From: a virus
DNA: 29,920 nt
IMG/VR virus record: IMGVR_UViG_3300009551_000100
Coordinates: 1-29,920 of that record
Strand: one strand, 5' to 3'
Below, one piece after another: positions 1,148-26,521 of this stretch. The position numbers and the translations under genes were made by a program. The notes beneath the pieces are model-generated. The model saw only the letters and a program-made list of their open reading frames with translations. It was not told the DNA's origin and did no database searches. Each line of letters opens with the position of its first letter. Position 1 is the stretch's first letter.

Positions 1148-1312
1148 ATGGCTAAACACCAAGAAAAGCATCATGCTAAACATCATAAAGAAGAACATCA
1201 TGAGCATCATGAAGAACATTCTCATGCCCATCATGCTAAAATGGCTAAACATCATTTAAGCGCTCTTCATAAGATGGCAAAAATGGGACATAAGCATCAT
1301 AAGGCAAAATAA
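1148..1312 (+). CDS. Histidine-rich microprotein (54 aa)
   Basis: Short open frame with an excellent ribosome site (AAAGGAG about seven bases before ATG 1148). Its TAA overlaps the ATG of the adaptor gene (TAATG at 1310-1314), which implies translational coupling. Nineteen of 54 residues are His, arranged as HH pairs separated by Lys, Glu and Ala (for example KHHKEEHHEHHEEHSHAHH); there is no Cys and no hydrophobic segment. The composition would suit binding of Ni, Zn or Cu, or pH-dependent charge switching. No known family is recognised. The position in the middle of the structural operon suggests a virion or assembly function, which is inference. Confidence 0.75.
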   Translation: MAKHQEKHHAKHHKEEHHEHHEEHSHAHHAKMAKHHLSALHKMAKMGHKHHKAK

Positions 1313-10442: not shown

Positions 10443-10665
10443 AATTTCTCACACATTTATTTTTTATTCTATATTTAGCAAAAACATCTTCTTCGCTTTT
10501 CTTTCTAAGAGATGATGGAAATTTAATGTTACATCTTTCTTCTGTGTTTAATTTTTCATATTTTTGTTTAGAGTGTATGTACAACTCAAAGCTAATTTTA
10601 AATATTAAAATCCAAGAGAAAATTAGAAGTGTTATTAAATAAGAAATTTTAATTTTTTCTTTCAC
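10405..10665 (-). CDS. Hypothetical membrane protein, GTG start (86 aa)
   Basis: Starts with GTG at 10665, overlapping the upstream TGA (GTGA), with GGGAAGGTAGGA upstream. Lysine-rich N-terminus, then one strongly hydrophobic segment at about 8-26 (SYLITLLIFSWILIFKISF), then a polar, Lys/Arg-rich tail with two Cys. The N-terminal Lys cluster could also act as an uncleaved signal anchor. No family recognised. The tail lacks the MK.FH.R signature of the two paralogues downstream. Confidence 0.6.
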   Translation of the reverse strand: MKEKIKISYLITLLIFSWILIFKISFELYIHSKQKYEKLNTEERCNIKFPSSLRKKSEEDVFAKYRIKNKCVRNYGLDASFNDIRR

Positions 10666-10892
10666 TTCCTACCTTCCCTAACTTCTTTCATAATTTCTAC
10701 GTACATTTGGTACAGTTGATCAATCCTAGCCATTTGCGCATCGACCCTTGCTGTTTCTGCATCAAGTCTATCGTGTATTGCATTGGTGTCGTTTTTTATC
10801 TCTCTACGAAAATAAAACGTTGATCCTACTACAGTAAATATGATGGAAGCAGTTTGTATCCATTGCTCTAAATGTACCCATGTTTCATTCAT
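10662..10892 (-). CDS. Small membrane protein with coiled-coil tail (76 aa)
   Basis: GAGGGGGAAATC precedes ATG 10892. Residues about 12-28 form a membrane segment (IQTASIIFTVVGSTFYF), followed by RREIKND and a heptad-patterned helix IHDRLDAETARVDAQMARID, ending EVREGRK. The overall plan (short N-terminus, one segment, long charged helix) is that of the other genes in this cassette and resembles the plan of phage i-spanins, though the order of charges and short length leave that open. Confidence 0.7.
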   Translation of the reverse strand: MNETWVHLEQWIQTASIIFTVVGSTFYFRREIKNDTNAIHDRLDAETARVDAQMARIDQLYQMYVEIMKEVREGRK

Positions 10893-11656: not shown

Positions 11657-12940
11657 ATGGCATATGACAAACCACTCGCCCCAAAACAACTGCAATTTAT
11701 CCTTGAATCAACCAAAAAATGGAACATAGCTCATGGATCAGTACGCACAGGAAAAACGGTTTGTACGCTTATTCGATTCATGCAAGCCTGCTGGGAATGC
11801 CCTGACAACCAACTATTTATGGTCGGTTACACATCTGATACAATCTATGATAATGCCATTAGGCTGCTTTTGGAGTCCGAACAATTATCCATTTTTCGTC
11901 CATATCTCACCTGGTTTGCAGGAAAGAGAGAACTTCGTTTCGGAGATAAGGTTATATCGACTCTTGGGGCGAAAGATGAGGGGCATCTCGGTAAGTTTCA
12001 AGGACTCACGATGTCTGTTGTATATTGTGACGAGATAACTTTATATCCAACGTCAATTATTAATATGATAGATACACGACTATCAAATCCTCATAGCATT
12101 GCATTTGCAACATGCAACCCCAAACAACCTAAACACATTATGAAGGAATGGATAGATAAAGCAGATGACGGAGACCCTAACTATTACGCTTTACATTATG
12201 TTTTGGACGATAATGTATTTCTTACCAAAGAATATAAGGACCGCATTAAGCATAGTTCGGCTGGCATTTTTTATAAACGTAATGTGCTGGGTTTGTGGTG
12301 TCTTGCAGAGGGAGCAATTTTTGAGTTTTTTGATCCTGCTTTGCATGTCTTATGCCGTCCTCCTTGTTCGGCAGAATATTGGATCGCTGGAATAGATTAC
12401 GGCACAAACAATCCATTTTGCTGTCTTTTGATTGGTGTATCTACAGGGAGATATACGCAAACAGGTAAACGTATATGGGTCGAAAAAGAATATTATTGGG
12501 ATCATAAGAAGAAAGGTAGGCAAAAAACTAACAGCGAGCTAGCTGATGACGTTCAAAAGTTTTTGGAAGATTATCCGGTTAGAAAAGTATATATTGACCC
12601 AAGCGCAGCATCTTTTGAATTAGAATTACGGCGTGCCGGTTTGCCCGTTATACATGCTGATAATGATGTAGAAAAAGGAATACAGATCATGACAGATTTA
12701 ATGTATAAGGGCGTATTGAGTGTTCTAGATTGCTGTCCAAATTTGATAAATGAGATCGAAGGATACGTATGGGACCCAAAACTAGGTGAAAAAGGCGTCG
12801 ACGCACCATTGAAGAGGGATGACCACGCAATCGACAGTTTACGCTACGCGGTATGTACGCATAAAGTCACAGAGTATAATCCGTATGAAGATGACAATAA
12901 AGGAAGATTTAGGAATAGATATGACCCATTCGGAAGATGA
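11657..12940 (+). CDS. terL: Terminase large subunit (427 aa)
   Basis: DNA-packaging motor and headful nuclease. Walker A at residues 27-34 (GSVRTGKT), Walker B at 121-126 (VVYCDE with catalytic Glu126), coupling motif ending CNP at 153-155. The C-terminal RNase H-like nuclease shows GIDYGTNNP (Asp247), a second acidic strand in VRKVYIDPSAASF and DDHAIDSLRYA at 388-398 (Asp393). Length is normal for the PBSX/P22-type terminases. The ribosome site is weak (GTGGG at long spacing). The usual partner, a TerS-like gene, is encoded on the opposite strand just beyond two small genes. Confidence 0.95.
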   Translation: MAYDKPLAPKQLQFILESTKKWNIAHGSVRTGKTVCTLIRFMQACWECPDNQLFMVGYTSDTIYDNAIRLLLESEQLSIFRPYLTWFAGKRELRFGDKVISTLGAKDEGHLGKFQGLTMSVVYCDEITLYPTSIINMIDTRLSNPHSIAFATCNPKQPKHIMKEWIDKADDGDPNYYALHYVLDDNVFLTKEYKDRIKHSSAGIFYKRNVLGLWCLAEGAIFEFFDPALHVLCRPPCSAEYWIAGIDYGTNNPFCCLLIGVSTGRYTQTGKRIWVEKEYYWDHKKKGRQKTNSELADDVQKFLEDYPVRKVYIDPSAASFELELRRAGLPVIHADNDVEKGIQIMTDLMYKGVLSVLDCCPNLINEIEGYVWDPKLGEKGVDAPLKRDDHAIDSLRYAVCTHKVTEYNPYEDDNKGRFRNRYDPFGR

Positions 12941-13115
12941 TGATATACTTTGGGATAATTGCTCTAATTGCGGAGAAAAAATAAAGAAGATGAGGTTTTT
13001 TTTGAAAATTAATAATCTAGAAACTTTTGAAGAACTACAAAGGGAATATTTTTGCTCTACTGAATGCCTAATGAAATGGTCGACTGAAGAACATGAGGTA
13101 CCAGTTGAGAAATAG
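12921..13115 (+). CDS. Small Cys-rich putative zinc-binding protein (64 aa)
   Basis: Start at ATG 12921 with AGGAAT upstream, inside the last 20 bases of terL in another frame. Acidic N-terminus (THSEDDDILWDN), then CSNCGEKIKK and, about 30 residues on, YFCSTECLMKW. The two Cys pairs (C-x2-C and C-x3-C) fit a single zinc site, and the CSTEC..KW end resembles treble-clef or MYM-type fingers. Coupled to terL and to the next gene, so probably expressed with packaging genes. Function unknown. Confidence 0.7.
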   Translation: MTHSEDDDILWDNCSNCGEKIKKMRFFLKINNLETFEELQREYFCSTECLMKWSTEEHEVPVEK

Positions 13116-13482
13116 AGCCAAATGCAAAATCTGCAAAGACATCATAGAATCTCTACAGAAAAACGATCACGTGTCTTGTAAATGCGATCAAATTAGCGTA
13201 TTCGGAGGCGAATCTTTATGCTGTCAAGCTAAAGACTGGGGTAATTTCATCCGAATAGACGATAATGGGAATGAGGTATTACCGACGATAGTTGACCCTG
13301 AGCCAAAGCGTAAGCCGACTAGAATTGAACTTATTGCAATGTTAGATGAGATGATTAAGTCTATTGAGGCATTGCCTGATCAGGCGATGATCGTGAGTAT
13401 CAATCAGTATGATTTTTACTCACTGCTTGTGTTGTTATCTTCTTTGTTTAAGTCAGAAGAATTGGATAAAGATTCAGTTTGA
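13093..13482 (+). CDS. DUF7695-like zinc-ribbon protein (129 aa)
   Basis: The N-terminus RNRAKCKICKDIIESLQKND, then VSCKCDQISVFGG, matches a phage family in which RNRAxCxxCxDxIES...CxCG...VDGG is conserved (DUF7695, recalled by pattern). Followed by a linker and a helical C-terminus (ELIAMLDEMIKSIEALPDQA, YDFYSLLVLLSSLF). It overlaps the previous gene by 23 bases, and its last 67 bases run antisense to the 3' end of the TerS-like gene. Function unknown. Confidence 0.75.
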   Translation: MRYQLRNRAKCKICKDIIESLQKNDHVSCKCDQISVFGGESLCCQAKDWGNFIRIDDNGNEVLPTIVDPEPKRKPTRIELIAMLDEMIKSIEALPDQAMIVSINQYDFYSLLVLLSSLFKSEELDKDSV

Positions 13483-16406: not shown

Positions 16407-16589
16407 TTAAGTTTTAAAAATTTGTGAAATAAGGTCGTTTAGACCTTCTAAATATCCTTCTTTAAAACCATTGATAAAATCTTCGTTTACTATACACTCA
16501 TCTGGCCTAAAGTGAATGAATTCTATATGGTTTTTTAATTTTTCTTCAATATATTGTTTTACATAAATGTCTAATTTTAAATCTTTCAT
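16407..16589 (-). CDS. Small helical protein (60 aa)
   Basis: ATG 16589 overlaps the initiator's stop (ATGA). KDLKLDIYVKQYIEEKLKNH, then a short middle with FIHFRPDECIVNEDF, and FKEGYLEGLNDLISQIF at the end. The FINGFKEGYLEGLND part resembles small phage proteins that follow replication genes. No function known. Confidence 0.65.
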   Translation of the reverse strand: MKDLKLDIYVKQYIEEKLKNHIEFIHFRPDECIVNEDFINGFKEGYLEGLNDLISQIFKT

Positions 16590-17539
16590 GTCGTTTTTTC
16601 CTTGATTGTTTCAATTTGAAAGCTTTCGCATAATTCTTCAAATTTCTTCCAACTGAAATATTGATCAAATTTTATCGAATTATTACGCATACCTCTCACA
16701 AAAGCAATGCCATCGGATTTTAAAAAACATTCCGCGTTATTATAAATTTCCCCGTTTTTGAAGATTTTTTTCACTTTCTCGTAAGGAGTTTCTGAGGTTT
16801 TTTTCTTCATTGATTCAAGGGATAAGCCCTTCTTGCATGCAAATTTTATCTGTGCAGCAAGACATTTATTTGGAGGATTATCAGGATGAAGGGACCATTT
16901 GACTGCGTTATATACTACTTCCAAAGGATATTTTTTTGTAATTTCCAATTGATCTTCGATAGGAATTTTTAATCCCCTGAGAGAAGGATAAATTATAGGC
17001 TTTTCTTCTTTTTCTAATTCAGAAAAAACAGCAGCAGCATCAGGAGGCGGCGCCTGATGCTGCTGCTGTTTTTCTTTAGGTATTGTATTTATGTTATTGT
17101 TATTAGTTACCCCGATTGGGGTCTCTAGTTGTCCCGTTTGGGGTAACCAGTTACCCTGTTTGGGGTTTCTAGAAAGATTTTTTGAAAGATATTCCGCAAT
17201 CTTTTGCAAATCAAGACGATAGTAATTTTTGCATGGAACACCAAATTTATATACTTGAATAAATTCGAGTTCTTGAAATTTTTTGATGATGGCTCTAAAA
17301 GGTTTTTCTTCAATGGCGCATTTATCCCATGCCCAGGAATGAGTATAATACATCAATCCATCTCCATGTTCTGGATGAGAACAAAGATTTTCATTTGCCT
17401 CAAGATATCCATATCGGTCGATAAAATCGGCTAGCAGCATAGCGCCTTCTATGCCGAGAATTTTAGCAATTTCTACGTGAATACTTACATATTTAGAACT
17501 CGGTAAAAGTGATGTAAGTAGATTAATTGAATGGTTCAT
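16586..17539 (-). CDS. Replication initiator-like protein, winged-helix N-terminus (317 aa)
   Basis: Strong GGAGGTGAAAGA ribosome site before ATG 17539. Residues 15-115 form a winged-helix pattern (VEIAKILGIEGAMLLADFID, HSWAWDKCAIEEKPFRAIIK, KFQELEFIQVYKFG, NYYRLDLQKIAEYL) of the type found in phage and plasmid initiators. Residues 125-165 are a low-complexity linker (NNNNIN, QQQHQ, PPPDAAA) whose DNA holds three iterons, an AT-rich stretch and a hairpin. The C-terminal part (180-230, then FFS-type end with YFSWKKFEELCESF) is helical. By analogy with lambda O, it would bind its own internal origin and recruit a host helicase loader; no helicase is encoded here. Confidence 0.7.
   Translation of the reverse strand: MNHSINLLTSLLPSSKYVSIHVEIAKILGIEGAMLLADFIDRYGYLEANENLCSHPEHGDGLMYYTHSWAWDKCAIEEKPFRAIIKKFQELEFIQVYKFGVPCKNYYRLDLQKIAEYLSKNLSRNPKQGNWLPQTGQLETPIGVTNNNNINTIPKEKQQQHQAPPPDAAAVFSELEKEEKPIIYPSLRGLKIPIEDQLEITKKYPLEVVYNAVKWSLHPDNPPNKCLAAQIKFACKKGLSLESMKKKTSETPYEKVKKIFKNGEIYNNAECFLKSDGIAFVRGMRNNSIKFDQYFSWKKFEELCESFQIETIKEKTT
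17024..17073. repeat. Perfect 21-bp inverted repeat inside the initiator gene
   Basis: Arms 17024-17044 and 17053-17073 are exact reverse complements (core CAGCAGCAGCATCAGG) with an 8-base GC-rich loop. On the coding strand the arms encode KQQQHQ and DAAAVF. It borders the AT-rich part of the proposed origin. Confidence 0.85.
17074..17164 (-). other. Candidate replication origin: three 22-bp iterons plus AT-rich stretch
   Basis: Reading the - strand, three head-to-tail copies start at 17164, 17142 and 17120, each opening with CCCCAAACAGGGTAAC, CCCCAAACGGGACAAC or CCCCAATCGGGGTAAC and spaced exactly 22 bases. They are followed by an AT-rich stretch to 17074 and the hairpin. Because 22 is not a multiple of three, each copy is read in a different frame, so the repeat is kept as DNA and not as protein. 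Iterons inside the initiator gene next to AT-rich DNA is the layout of the lambda origin. Confidence 0.65.
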
Positions 17540-17772
17540 TCTTTCACCTCCACCAGATATCCGGCTTCAATCAAATTCTTTATTACACTTATTGGCAAAT
17601 CTATTTCATCTTCTAAAAGCATCAAATAGGATAAGCATCCTTTTGATTCCCATGAGATATTTGCATCTTTTAATAGGTTGTAGGGATGTTTAGATATTAA
17701 TTGATATTCTTTTTCATCGTGTCGAATTAATCCAAGAAAATGATTATCTTCTCTTAAAATTTTTAAAGGCAT
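17536..17772 (-). CDS. Small winged-helix protein, replication-linked (78 aa)
   Basis: Start chosen at ATG 17772 with AAGGG upstream; a reading from 17841 would begin inside an inverted repeat. PLKILREDNHFLGLIRHDEK, then LLKDANISWESKGCLSYLML and LEDEIDLPISVIKNLIEAGY. The ISW.SKG.LSYLM segment resembles the first helices of DnaD-like replisome organisers and phage replication proteins. Its stop overlaps the initiator's ATG (ATGA), so the two are probably made together. Role inferred. Confidence 0.7.
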   Translation of the reverse strand: MPLKILREDNHFLGLIRHDEKEYQLISKHPYNLLKDANISWESKGCLSYLMLLEDEIDLPISVIKNLIEAGYLVEVKE

Positions 17773-17798
17773 AGCAAACCCTTGTGTAAAATTGTTAG

Positions 17799-17843
17799 GT
17801 TTGCTACTATGGAGACAACCGCTTGAGCTCCATAGTAGCAAAC
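17799..17843. promoter_or_regulatory. 16-bp perfect inverted repeat in the leader of the replication operon
   Basis: GTTTGCTACTATGGAG (17799-17814) and CTCCATAGTAGCAAAC (17828-17843) are exact reverse complements, 13 bases apart. A third TAGCAAAC lies at 17771-17778 over the start codon. A weak - strand promoter (TTGTCT and TAACAA, 15 bases apart) would have its -35 between the arms, as an operator would. Confidence 0.6.
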
Positions 17844-17848
17844 TTCGT

Positions 17849-17870
17849 TCCCCCGAGAAATCTCGGGGGA
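17849..17870. repeat. 10-bp perfect hairpin next to the operator-like repeat
   Basis: TCCCCCGAGA (17849-17858) and TCTCGGGGGA (17861-17870) are exact reverse complements with two bases between. GC-rich but with no T tract on either side, so not a canonical terminator. It sits between the upstream gene's stop and the replication operon leader. Confidence 0.65.
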
Positions 17871-17894
17871 TGAATCTTTTCTATCTTAAGTCAT

Positions 17895-24001: not shown

Positions 24002-26521
24002 TTATGTAGGACGAACGATGAAATATGCGTAGCTTGATACATCGCCGGTCTGCGTCGAACCTGGTGTCCCCAGTATAACGCTAGTTACAGTAAAGCTTGC
24101 TCCAGCACTAATAGTGTAAGTCAATACACCAAGTGTAGTTGAGGCATTAACCGCTGTTCTTGTAATCAAGATCACATCACCAGCTGCTATGTTTGTATTT
24201 GAAATAGTTTGTGTTCCTGCTGTAAGAACACCAGTGCCTATGAAATCTGTGGCAGCACCACCATTAACAAGCAATGTTTTAGCAACGCTTGCAATAGAAA
24301 GATGTCCTCCAGTAACGTTAACATTGCCACTTCCCGAATTGATCGTGGTAGTACTTGTTGTGTTGGTAGAACCAAGAGTAACAGTTTGAGCTCCTGCACC
24401 TGTACCAATCTTGATTACGTTAGCAGATGTAGCACTATCACCAGCAATGTTTATCGTTTTAATACCTGTGTTGTTAGCAATATTAATTGTTTGAGCACCA
24501 GTACCACCCAAAATTGTTGCTGTACCTGTGTTTGCACCTGTTCCACCAAAATTAATCGTTCCTGATGTAGTACTAGGAGCAAACGTATAAGCTGTAGTTG
24601 CAGCACCATCTAAAGAGAAGTTGCCTGTACCTGCAAGTAAGGATAAAGATGAAGCACCATTGCTACTTCCTATTGTGATTAAATTAGCACCTGCACCATC
24701 TCCAATATTGATTGTTTTACCGCCAGTTGAATGACCAATATTGATTGTTTGTGCACCGGTTCCTGGGCCAATCGCGATTGTACCTGTATGAGCACCTGTT
24801 CCACCGACAGTAATTGTTCCTGTCGTCATTGCGGTACCCATATTAATTGCACCAGCTGTTTGAACAACCCCTAAAGAAAGTGTTCCAGCTCCAGCACCAT
24901 TCATAATCTTAACTGCGTTAGTTCCGCTAGAAGAACCTAATATAATATCACCAGTTTGAGCAGTACCGCCTATTGTAATCGTTCCTGTTGTTGTTGATGC
25001 GCCTACTGTATATGTAGAACCAGCTACACCATCAAGAGTATAATTACCAGTTCCTACATGTTCTGTTAAGCTTGCGGCTCCATTAGTTGTACCAATTGTA
25101 ATAACATTAGCCGATGCTCCATCACCAATTTGGATTGTCTTAACCCCAGTTCCTCCATGACCAATCGTAATTGTCTGAGCTCCTGTGCCTGGTGCAATTG
25201 CAACTGTTCCTGTTTGAAGTCCTGTTCCTCCAATAGTGATAGTACCAGTAGTCATTGCAGCGCCAATATTTACAGCACCACCAACTTGAACGTTAGCAAT
25301 ATTAACGGTAGACGCACCGGATCCATTAGCAATTAATAAAGAGTTGGTTCCAGAAGAACTTCCTAAAGTAATTGTTCCTGTCTGGGCTGTACCACCTATT
25401 GTAATCGTTCCTGTAGTCATACCAGCACCAGCGCTTATTGAACCACCTGTCTGTGTATTTGCTAAATGAAGAGTAGTTGCTCCTGCTCCATCCGCAATCA
25501 AAACAGAATTTGTTCCACTTGAACTACCAAGTGTAATTGTGCCTGTTTGAGCAGTACCACCTATTGTAATCGTTCCTGTAGTCATTCCTGTACCGGCATT
25601 AATTGCTCCGCCGGTTTGAACCACGCCTAAACTTAAAGTACCAGCACCAGAACCATTCATAATTCTTACGGCATTTGTACCTGAGGATGAACCCAATGTT
25701 AAGTTTCCTGTTTGGGCAGTTCCACCTATTGTAATCGTCCCTGTCGTTGTAGAAGTACCTATAGTATAAGCAGTTCCAGTTGTTCCATCTAAAGTAAAAG
25801 TTGTTCCAGCTTTCATTACCAAAGAAGTAGCAGATGCACTTCCAAGAGTAATAACGTTAGCTGCTGCATCATCGAATAATTTTATTGTATTACCTCCACC
25901 GACTGCAGTAAGCCCTCCAGCACCAGATGTTAATGTAATCGCTCCGGAAGATCCTCCAATTGTTGTAGTTCCTGCTCCTGAAGCATTTAATGATACCGTT
26001 CCAAGTGCTGTTAAATTAGTAAATGTACCAGCTGCCGGTGTCGTTCCTCCTGTTGCTGGAGGTGCAGCAAAAACAGCAGCTAAATTACTAGGTTGAACGG
26101 CTAAGGCTGTAACTCCGGGAACTGTGGCAGTACCCGCTACCGCTTGAGCATCTGTAGCTAAATTTGTTATACCTGTTACAGTTGTTTGAGCAATATTAGC
26201 ACCACCTAAAACAACGCTTTGAACATAGGTAAATACGTCATTTGCTAAAGGAACATATGCTCCAGATGGGGCCGTTCCTGCTTCTAATTGAGCCAAAGTT
26301 GAAAGAGTGACAATACCAGGTGTTGATGTTGTTGCCGCACCATTACCCCCCGCCTGCCAAGTTACTCCATTAAAGACATATTCCGTAGGAGGTGATGTCA
26401 ATGTGTCGAAATATTGTTGTCCTAATGCTCCTTGTAAATTAGCCGATGGTACTCCTCTTCCTGAAATTGCTGGGGGAGGAACTGCTACTAAACCACCAAT
26501 GCCATAAACTGATATACTCAT
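24002..26521 (-). CDS. Long tail fibre with tandem repeats (839 aa)
   Basis: CACAAGGAGAT precedes ATG 26521. The first 90 residues (RGVPSANLQGALGQQYFDTL, WQAGGNGAATTSTPGIVTLS, GAYVPLANDVFTYVQ) look like an attachment domain. The middle is a Gly/Thr/Ser-rich repeat array with TGTITIGG, TGTITLGSSSGTN and GAGMT units; adjacent copies are 55 residues (165 bp) apart. The end (VNGGAATDFIGTGVLTAGTQ, NTNIAAGDVILITRT, STTLGVLTYTISAGASFTV, YAYFIVRP) matches a terminal domain seen in many phage fibres. The array should form a long trimeric beta-helical shaft. First gene of the operon, with its own promoter. Confidence 0.8.
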   Translation of the reverse strand: MSISVYGIGGLVAVPPPAISGRGVPSANLQGALGQQYFDTLTSPPTEYVFNGVTWQAGGNGAATTSTPGIVTLSTLAQLEAGTAPSGAYVPLANDVFTYVQSVVLGGANIAQTTVTGITNLATDAQAVAGTATVPGVTALAVQPSNLAAVFAAPPATGGTTPAAGTFTNLTALGTVSLNASGAGTTTIGGSSGAITLTSGAGGLTAVGGGNTIKLFDDAAANVITLGSASATSLVMKAGTTFTLDGTTGTAYTIGTSTTTGTITIGGTAQTGNLTLGSSSGTNAVRIMNGSGAGTLSLGVVQTGGAINAGTGMTTGTITIGGTAQTGTITLGSSSGTNSVLIADGAGATTLHLANTQTGGSISAGAGMTTGTITIGGTAQTGTITLGSSSGTNSLLIANGSGASTVNIANVQVGGAVNIGAAMTTGTITIGGTGLQTGTVAIAPGTGAQTITIGHGGTGVKTIQIGDGASANVITIGTTNGAASLTEHVGTGNYTLDGVAGSTYTVGASTTTGTITIGGTAQTGDIILGSSSGTNAVKIMNGAGAGTLSLGVVQTAGAINMGTAMTTGTITVGGTGAHTGTIAIGPGTGAQTINIGHSTGGKTINIGDGAGANLITIGSSNGASSLSLLAGTGNFSLDGAATTAYTFAPSTTSGTINFGGTGANTGTATILGGTGAQTINIANNTGIKTINIAGDSATSANVIKIGTGAGAQTVTLGSTNTTSTTTINSGSGNVNVTGGHLSIASVAKTLLVNGGAATDFIGTGVLTAGTQTISNTNIAAGDVILITRTAVNASTTLGVLTYTISAGASFTVTSVILGTPGSTQTGDVSSYAYFIVRPT
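24962..25740 (-). repeat. Tandem 165-bp repeats within the long fibre gene
   Basis: On the + strand ACCACCTATTGTAATCGTTC starts at 25391 and again at 25556, exactly 165 bases apart. Related copies follow at about 24969, 25228 and 25728. They encode the GTITIGG unit. Confidence 0.7.

Follow-up and report, generated by a model that had tools for sequence, protein, structure and literature searches.

The window, by which we mean the whole 29,920-nucleotide stretch of DNA analyzed here, is a 29.9-kb fragment of a phage genome. The same virus is also present as a 36,656-bp record, IMGVR_UViG_3300025924_000059, which looks circularly closed because window bases 10552–10693 map to both of its ends. 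On the minus strand of the window, positions 16586–17539 hold the gene for a 317-residue protein, assigned as a replication initiator from its open reading frame, a match to phrog_9773 and its AlphaFold model, and consisting of a winged helix, a linker and a low-confidence C-terminal part. An upstream ORF of 101 residues (17536–17841, minus strand) overlaps the initiator gene and weakly resembles the DNA-binding domain of DnaD-type phage replication proteins (phrog_11718, E 7e-5), a profile that also matches TP901-1 ORF13 (E 1e-16). Upstream of the initiator operon lie two adjacent inverted repeats, one at 17799–17843 with 16-bp perfect arms and one at 17836–17883, a CCCCCGAGA/TCTCGGGGG hairpin after which the sequence is T-rich. 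Other phage genes encode a P22-type portal, a terminase, an ERF annealing protein and a YqaJ exonuclease; identity to named phages is at most 36% for the terminase and 22% for the portal, and apart from the same virus no close relative was found in viral contigs, GTDB genomes or phage and plasmid records. No helicase, loader (P), primase or polymerase was recognized among the phage proteins scanned, which included the neighbors of the initiator gene; some small ORFs there have no assigned function.

In the AlphaFold model, which was based on 29 sequences, residues 21–120 form a winged helix with pLDDT values above 90, and this prediction supports the preliminary description of the locus, in which the protein had been called a winged-helix initiator. 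The domain, counted as residues 1–120 (17180–17539, minus strand), is predicted from the AlphaFold and Foldseek results to bind DNA. After residue 120, a low-confidence, mostly loop segment leads into a poorly modelled helical C-terminal part, for which searches gave no relatives and no convincing families. This low-confidence segment is what the DNA elements described below encode: the iterons, the AT-rich stretch and a large part of the hairpin. The best PDB matches in Foldseek are the N-terminal domains of the RepA_N plasmid initiators 5kbj and 4pql (E 3e-3 to 7e-3), modest fold matches with a probability of 1.00, an rmsd of 6.5–6.9 and a TM of target of 0.50; the DnaD N domain 2v79 was matched further down the list. 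Among predicted viral structures, the nearest are a 'Replication protein', A0A6J5LH09 (34% identity, E 8e-17), and the replication protein of Ld17.

A sequence search of the PDB gave weak generic matches only, and no Pfam family, RepA_N (PF06970) included, matched the window protein at E 0.01. The DnaD N-terminal domain PF21984 is matched by 3 of 32 family members, the window protein not being one of them, and the lambda O domain families phrog_277, phrog_2365 and phrog_678 were not matched by the window domain alone. The sole profile match of the 317-residue protein is to phrog_9773, 'replication initiation O-like' (E 7e-4), a match that is weak since it spans the linker and vanishes when the DNA-binding domain alone serves as query. 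The same profile is matched by 31 of the 32 aligned family members at E 1e-3 or better.

Inside the initiator gene, three 22-bp units stand head to tail, gapless and at an exact spacing of 22 bases (17101–17166, minus strand): iteron 1, ACCCCAAACAGGGTAACTGGTT (17145–17166); iteron 2, ACCCCAAACGGGACAACTAGAG (17123–17144); and iteron 3, ACCCCAATCGGGGTAACTAATA (17101–17122). Such an array had been proposed in the preliminary description, and both a repeat search and TRF confirm it, TRF giving it a score of 82, the highest of any tandem array in the window (next, 45). The placement given earlier, 17074–17164 with the AT-rich stretch included, was sound, but its borders shift slightly, to 17101–17166 for the array itself. 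In the register of the repeat search, identity to the first copy is 77% and 82% for the other two, so the core quoted earlier, CCCCAAACAGGGTAAC, is exact in only one of the three. Despite this divergence, all retain an ACCCCAA.CRGGG core and a dyad. The unit is itself an inverted repeat (dyad p = 0.001, window alone) of the form ACCCC-N4-GGGGT, perfect in copy 3 and imperfect in copies 1 and 2.

Copy 1 begins in frame 1 and is read as NPKQGN, copy 2 in frame 2 as LPQTGQ, and copy 3 in frame 0 as TPIGVT. That the same repeat is read in three frames had been taken to show selection on the DNA. The three frames are indeed there, but frames alone are no proof, and the case is carried by the relatives discussed below and by synonymous-codon shuffles of the gene, none of 200 of which reached the observed self-similarity of the iterons. 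No further iteron copies were found outside the array in the window or in the 36,656-bp record, and no tandem pair of the iteron pattern was found in the viral contigs searched, where two single matches were taken as chance. The second-best tandem array of the window (1151–1235) repeats in 24-bp steps, a period divisible by three, and is apparently low-complexity, CATCAT-rich sequence.

The iterons are followed by an AT-rich stretch coding for NNNNIN, as had been described: VTNNNNIN comes next in the protein, and 17074–17100 (minus strand), a candidate unwinding element, is 78% AT and codes for most of NNNNINTIPK. The stretch is short (27–32 bp), and its AT content is only moderately above that of its surroundings. 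Directly beyond it lies a feature absent from the preliminary description, a perfect 21-bp inverted repeat with an 8-nt loop (17024–17044 / 17053–17073, minus strand), which is a candidate origin palindrome. This hairpin (17024–17073) lies within the coding sequence, where it encodes KQQQHQAPPPDAAAVF, and carries (CAG)3 in its arms. Folded as single-stranded DNA it has an energy of −25.8 kcal/mol (z −8.2), and its stem of 21 is the longest perfect one in the gene, compared with at most 15 in 60 synonymous shuffles. A and T runs flank it on both sides, so placed that T runs occur on both strands. It is a candidate cruciform, priming signal or terminator, the last being as likely as the other two. 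A comparable hairpin was found in none of 15 relatives tested.

Distant relatives of the window protein were found by tblastn among the replication initiators of Flavobacterium, Fusobacterium and Lactobacillus phages, with 25–29% identity over the first 110–135 residues, and a search with an alignment of the N-terminal domain added 40 further viral and 9 genome loci. The linker of each gene was searched for tandem repetition at lags of 16 to 30 bp, with 100 synonymous-codon permutations of the same gene as the null and a threshold of p 0.01. About 22 loci pass this test, corresponding by hand count to about 17 of about 34 distinct genes. The period is 23 bp in nearly all passing genes, 22 bp in the window phage and in Dulcicalothrix, and 27 bp in one; the periods of 22 and 23 are not divisible by three. 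The repeats of the relatives sit in or just after the linker, and while the iteron sequences vary between lineages, their spacing and place are nearly constant. When 13 distinct iteron-bearing genes were pooled, inverted repeats exceeded those in column shuffles (combined p 6e-7). In the linker test, roughly half of the distinct relatives gave no in-gene repeat at a significant level; among these non-passing genes, the best lag is 23 more often than expected by chance (6 of 17, hand count; P 6e-4), and in one locus, L056, a strong array with 23-bp steps lies immediately outside the part of the gene examined. In L049, an array of 24-bp steps upstream of the gene was considered as a set of external iterons and rejected as a low-complexity coding-type repeat. 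Homologues with the same protein linker but no repeat in the DNA, which the preliminary description held would speak against an origin, did not appear as such, since linker sequences are not conserved in the family; the half of the relatives in which a repeat was not detected nevertheless tempers this result.

Comparison of iteron bases across relatives, which had been suggested as a check, was informative within two clusters of related genes. Members of the cluster L029/L031/L035/L041 are 87–96% identical over the iteron region, whereas identity in the rest of the gene falls to 62–63% in the most distant pairs. Between L031 and L041, 23 of 24 codons are identical in the iterons and 50 of 118 elsewhere (Fisher 5e-7), and between L014 and L033 the corresponding counts are 27 of 29 and 49 of 84. 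At the level of sequence comparison, these near-frozen codons are direct evidence for DNA-level selection on iterons in the family. This evidence comes from the relatives and not from the window's own iterons, since no close relative of the phage was found in the collections.

The genes adjoining the initiators of the relatives support an initiator role. The initiator gene is followed by a DnaB gene in L048, L059 and Fusobacterium phage phiBB, by a gene for an SPP1 gp39-like helicase loader in L031, L035 and L041, by one for a DnaC-like loader in Ld17, and by one for a Prim-Pol in L046. L059 is a cyanobacterial contig, from Dulcicalothrix desertica PCC 7102 (L059:2276–4988), in which a 413-residue initiator of the window protein's family, with 22-bp in-gene repeats at gene positions 458–544, directly precedes DnaB; the arrangement resembles the replication module of a phage or plasmid.

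The layout is of an established kind, with lambda O, SPP1 gp38, TP901-1 ORF13 and pSK41 Rep as precedents. The iterons of lambda are each inverted repeats to which O binds as a dimer (PMC5043065, PMC7466680). Gene O presents four iterons of 18 bp (ATCCCTCAAAACGAGGGA), then an AT-rich stretch, then a palindrome whose arms measure 12 bp. With lambda O, as found in lambdoid phages and in P22 gene 18, the window gene shares in-gene iterons between the DNA-binding and C-terminal parts, inverted-repeat iterons with C-rich and G-rich arms and an A-rich center (ATCCCTCAAAACGAGGGA in lambda, ACCCCAAACAGGGT here), an AT-rich flank and a palindrome beyond that flank. It differs in that its 22-bp units number three and are evenly spaced, against four at 20/24/23 in lambda, and in having a perfect 21-bp palindrome where lambda has 12-bp arms at 92%; moreover, the window protein has no direct match to an O family, and no P or helicase gene was recognized downstream. 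The protein had been described as unrelated-looking. This agrees with the lack of a Pfam match, but is too strong in view of the weak O-like match to phrog_9773 and of the relatives that match phrog_678: the domains of phiBB and L034 do so at 7.5e-8 to 4e-9, and the DNA-binding domain of lambda O at 3e-33. Comparison of lambda O and window-family alignments by hhalign gave a weak probability of 57%. Because phrog_678 is common to relatives and lambda O, the window protein likely shares a distant ancestor with winged-helix initiators of the O, DnaD and RepA_N types, an ancestry suggested by these profile matches but not proven.

The remaining systems resemble the locus in other respects. The 319-residue Rep of plasmid pSK41, the RepA_N prototype, binds four Rep boxes in its own gene; the stretch of protein encoded by the origin is a linker that joins the N-terminal domain to a DnaG-binding C-terminal domain and can be dispensed with (PMC5703833). 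RepA_N proteins provide the best solved fold for the winged helix, and pSK41 Rep has nearly the length of the window protein, the same order of N-terminal domain, origin-encoded linker and C-terminal domain, and its sites likewise inside the gene; in contrast, the window belongs to a phage and not to a plasmid, its protein has no Pfam RepA_N match, and the modest fold match (E 3e-3) covers the N-terminal domain only. In SPP1, gp38/oriL is described as having direct repeats and an AT-rich unwinding element within the initiator gene (PMC6316719). By this published description both features are shared with the window, and a gp39-like loader is shared with L031, L035 and L041; SPP1, however, has a second origin, oriR, whereas only one iteron cluster was found here. 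TP901-1 ORF13 and Tuc2009 ORF16 bind repeats within their own genes, and for ORF13 and Tuc2009 Rep2009, DnaD-like replisome organizers of lactococcal phages, the repeats in the cognate gene serve as ori (PMC8965321). ORF13 shares phrog_428 and phrog_270 with relatives of the window protein; its repeats, unlike those here, come in 15-bp steps and are not significant by the shuffle test, and the window protein has no direct match to it.

Taken with these precedents, the features at 17024–17166 very probably constitute an iteron-type theta origin within the gene of its own initiator, with binding and activity predicted. The locus is a new, very divergent case of the already known origin-in-initiator arrangement. 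The preliminary reading of a lambda O-like in-gene origin is well supported by the anatomy, by the relatives and by their replication-gene neighbors, but the kinship of the protein to O is indirect. GC skew, which had been offered as a further check, was uninformative: across the whole genome, the skew reaches its minimum 1.6 kb from the iterons, coinciding with a change of gene direction, so it provides no evidence for an origin.

In the mechanism that we propose, the N-terminal winged helix would bind the three 22-bp iterons, probably as dimers, and the bound protein would bend the array and melt the adjacent AT-rich stretch at 17074–17100. The C-terminal part would then recruit a helicase or its loader, presumably that of the host, and theta replication would start. 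The hairpin may aid extrusion or priming, or limit transcription across the origin. Because what the iterons encode is no more than a loosely folded linker, their DNA sequence can be preserved at no cost to the protein.

Winged-helix proteins often autoregulate, and the repeats might accordingly be operators through which the protein blocks its own transcription, with the replication origin elsewhere; the T-run-flanked hairpin beside the array could then end transcription. We regard this as improbable, if the best of the alternatives. The sites are some 370 bp inside the gene, away from a promoter position, a search of the 36,656-bp record of the same virus yielded no other cluster of iterons, and the relatives adjoin helicase, loader or primase genes, all of which argues against an operator-only role. 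Furthermore, known in-gene initiator sites serve as origins (PMC6316719, PMC8965321, PMC5703833).

Less probable still is a recent tandem duplication devoid of DNA function, its repeats drifting in an unconstrained linker. Linkers do tolerate insertions, and three 22-bp units add up to 66 bp, which keeps the frame; however, copies that have diverged to about 77–82% identity still hold the core and the dyad, the 22/23-bp spacing recurs at the same place in relatives whose iterons differ in sequence, and the codons of the iterons are frozen in a comparable cluster. Equally hard to credit is that array and hairpin together are RNA structures in the initiator mRNA, acting in termination, attenuation or translational control: the 21-bp hairpin is very stable, has T runs on both strands and could have such a role on its own, but the array folds barely better than shuffles (z −2.3), Rfam gave no family match, and in-register direct repeats are a pattern of protein binding.

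The in-gene origin favored here gives an uncultivated phage with almost no recognizable relatives a testable origin. An origin inside the initiator gene also appears to be recurrent, given that about half of the roughly 34 distinct relatives carry repeats at a similar place and at nearly the same 22/23-bp spacing. Pairs of initiator and cognate sites can thereby be predicted from sequence alone, which is of use for studying binding specificity, phage and plasmid incompatibility and replicon evolution. More speculatively, and with rather less than even confidence, we suggest that the window protein belongs to a widespread, largely unnamed branch of winged-helix initiators, each with private 22/23-bp linker iterons, that binding domain and sites travel as one cassette, and that the window's hairpin acts in priming or replication control. 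Just as tentatively, this branch might span phages and some cellular mobile elements, with a Fusobacterium phage, clostridial genomes and a cyanobacterium as examples.

Two unrelated features were noted in passing. At L010:11869–13644, a LAGLIDADG endonuclease ORF (12608–13198, plus strand) lies between two minus-strand ORFs that may be parts of the coat gene; an Rfam search found no intron at this locus. In the window itself, an 839-residue ORF at 24002–26521 contains many degenerate GTITIGG/TGTITLGSSSGTN repeats and probably encodes a tail fiber or spike.
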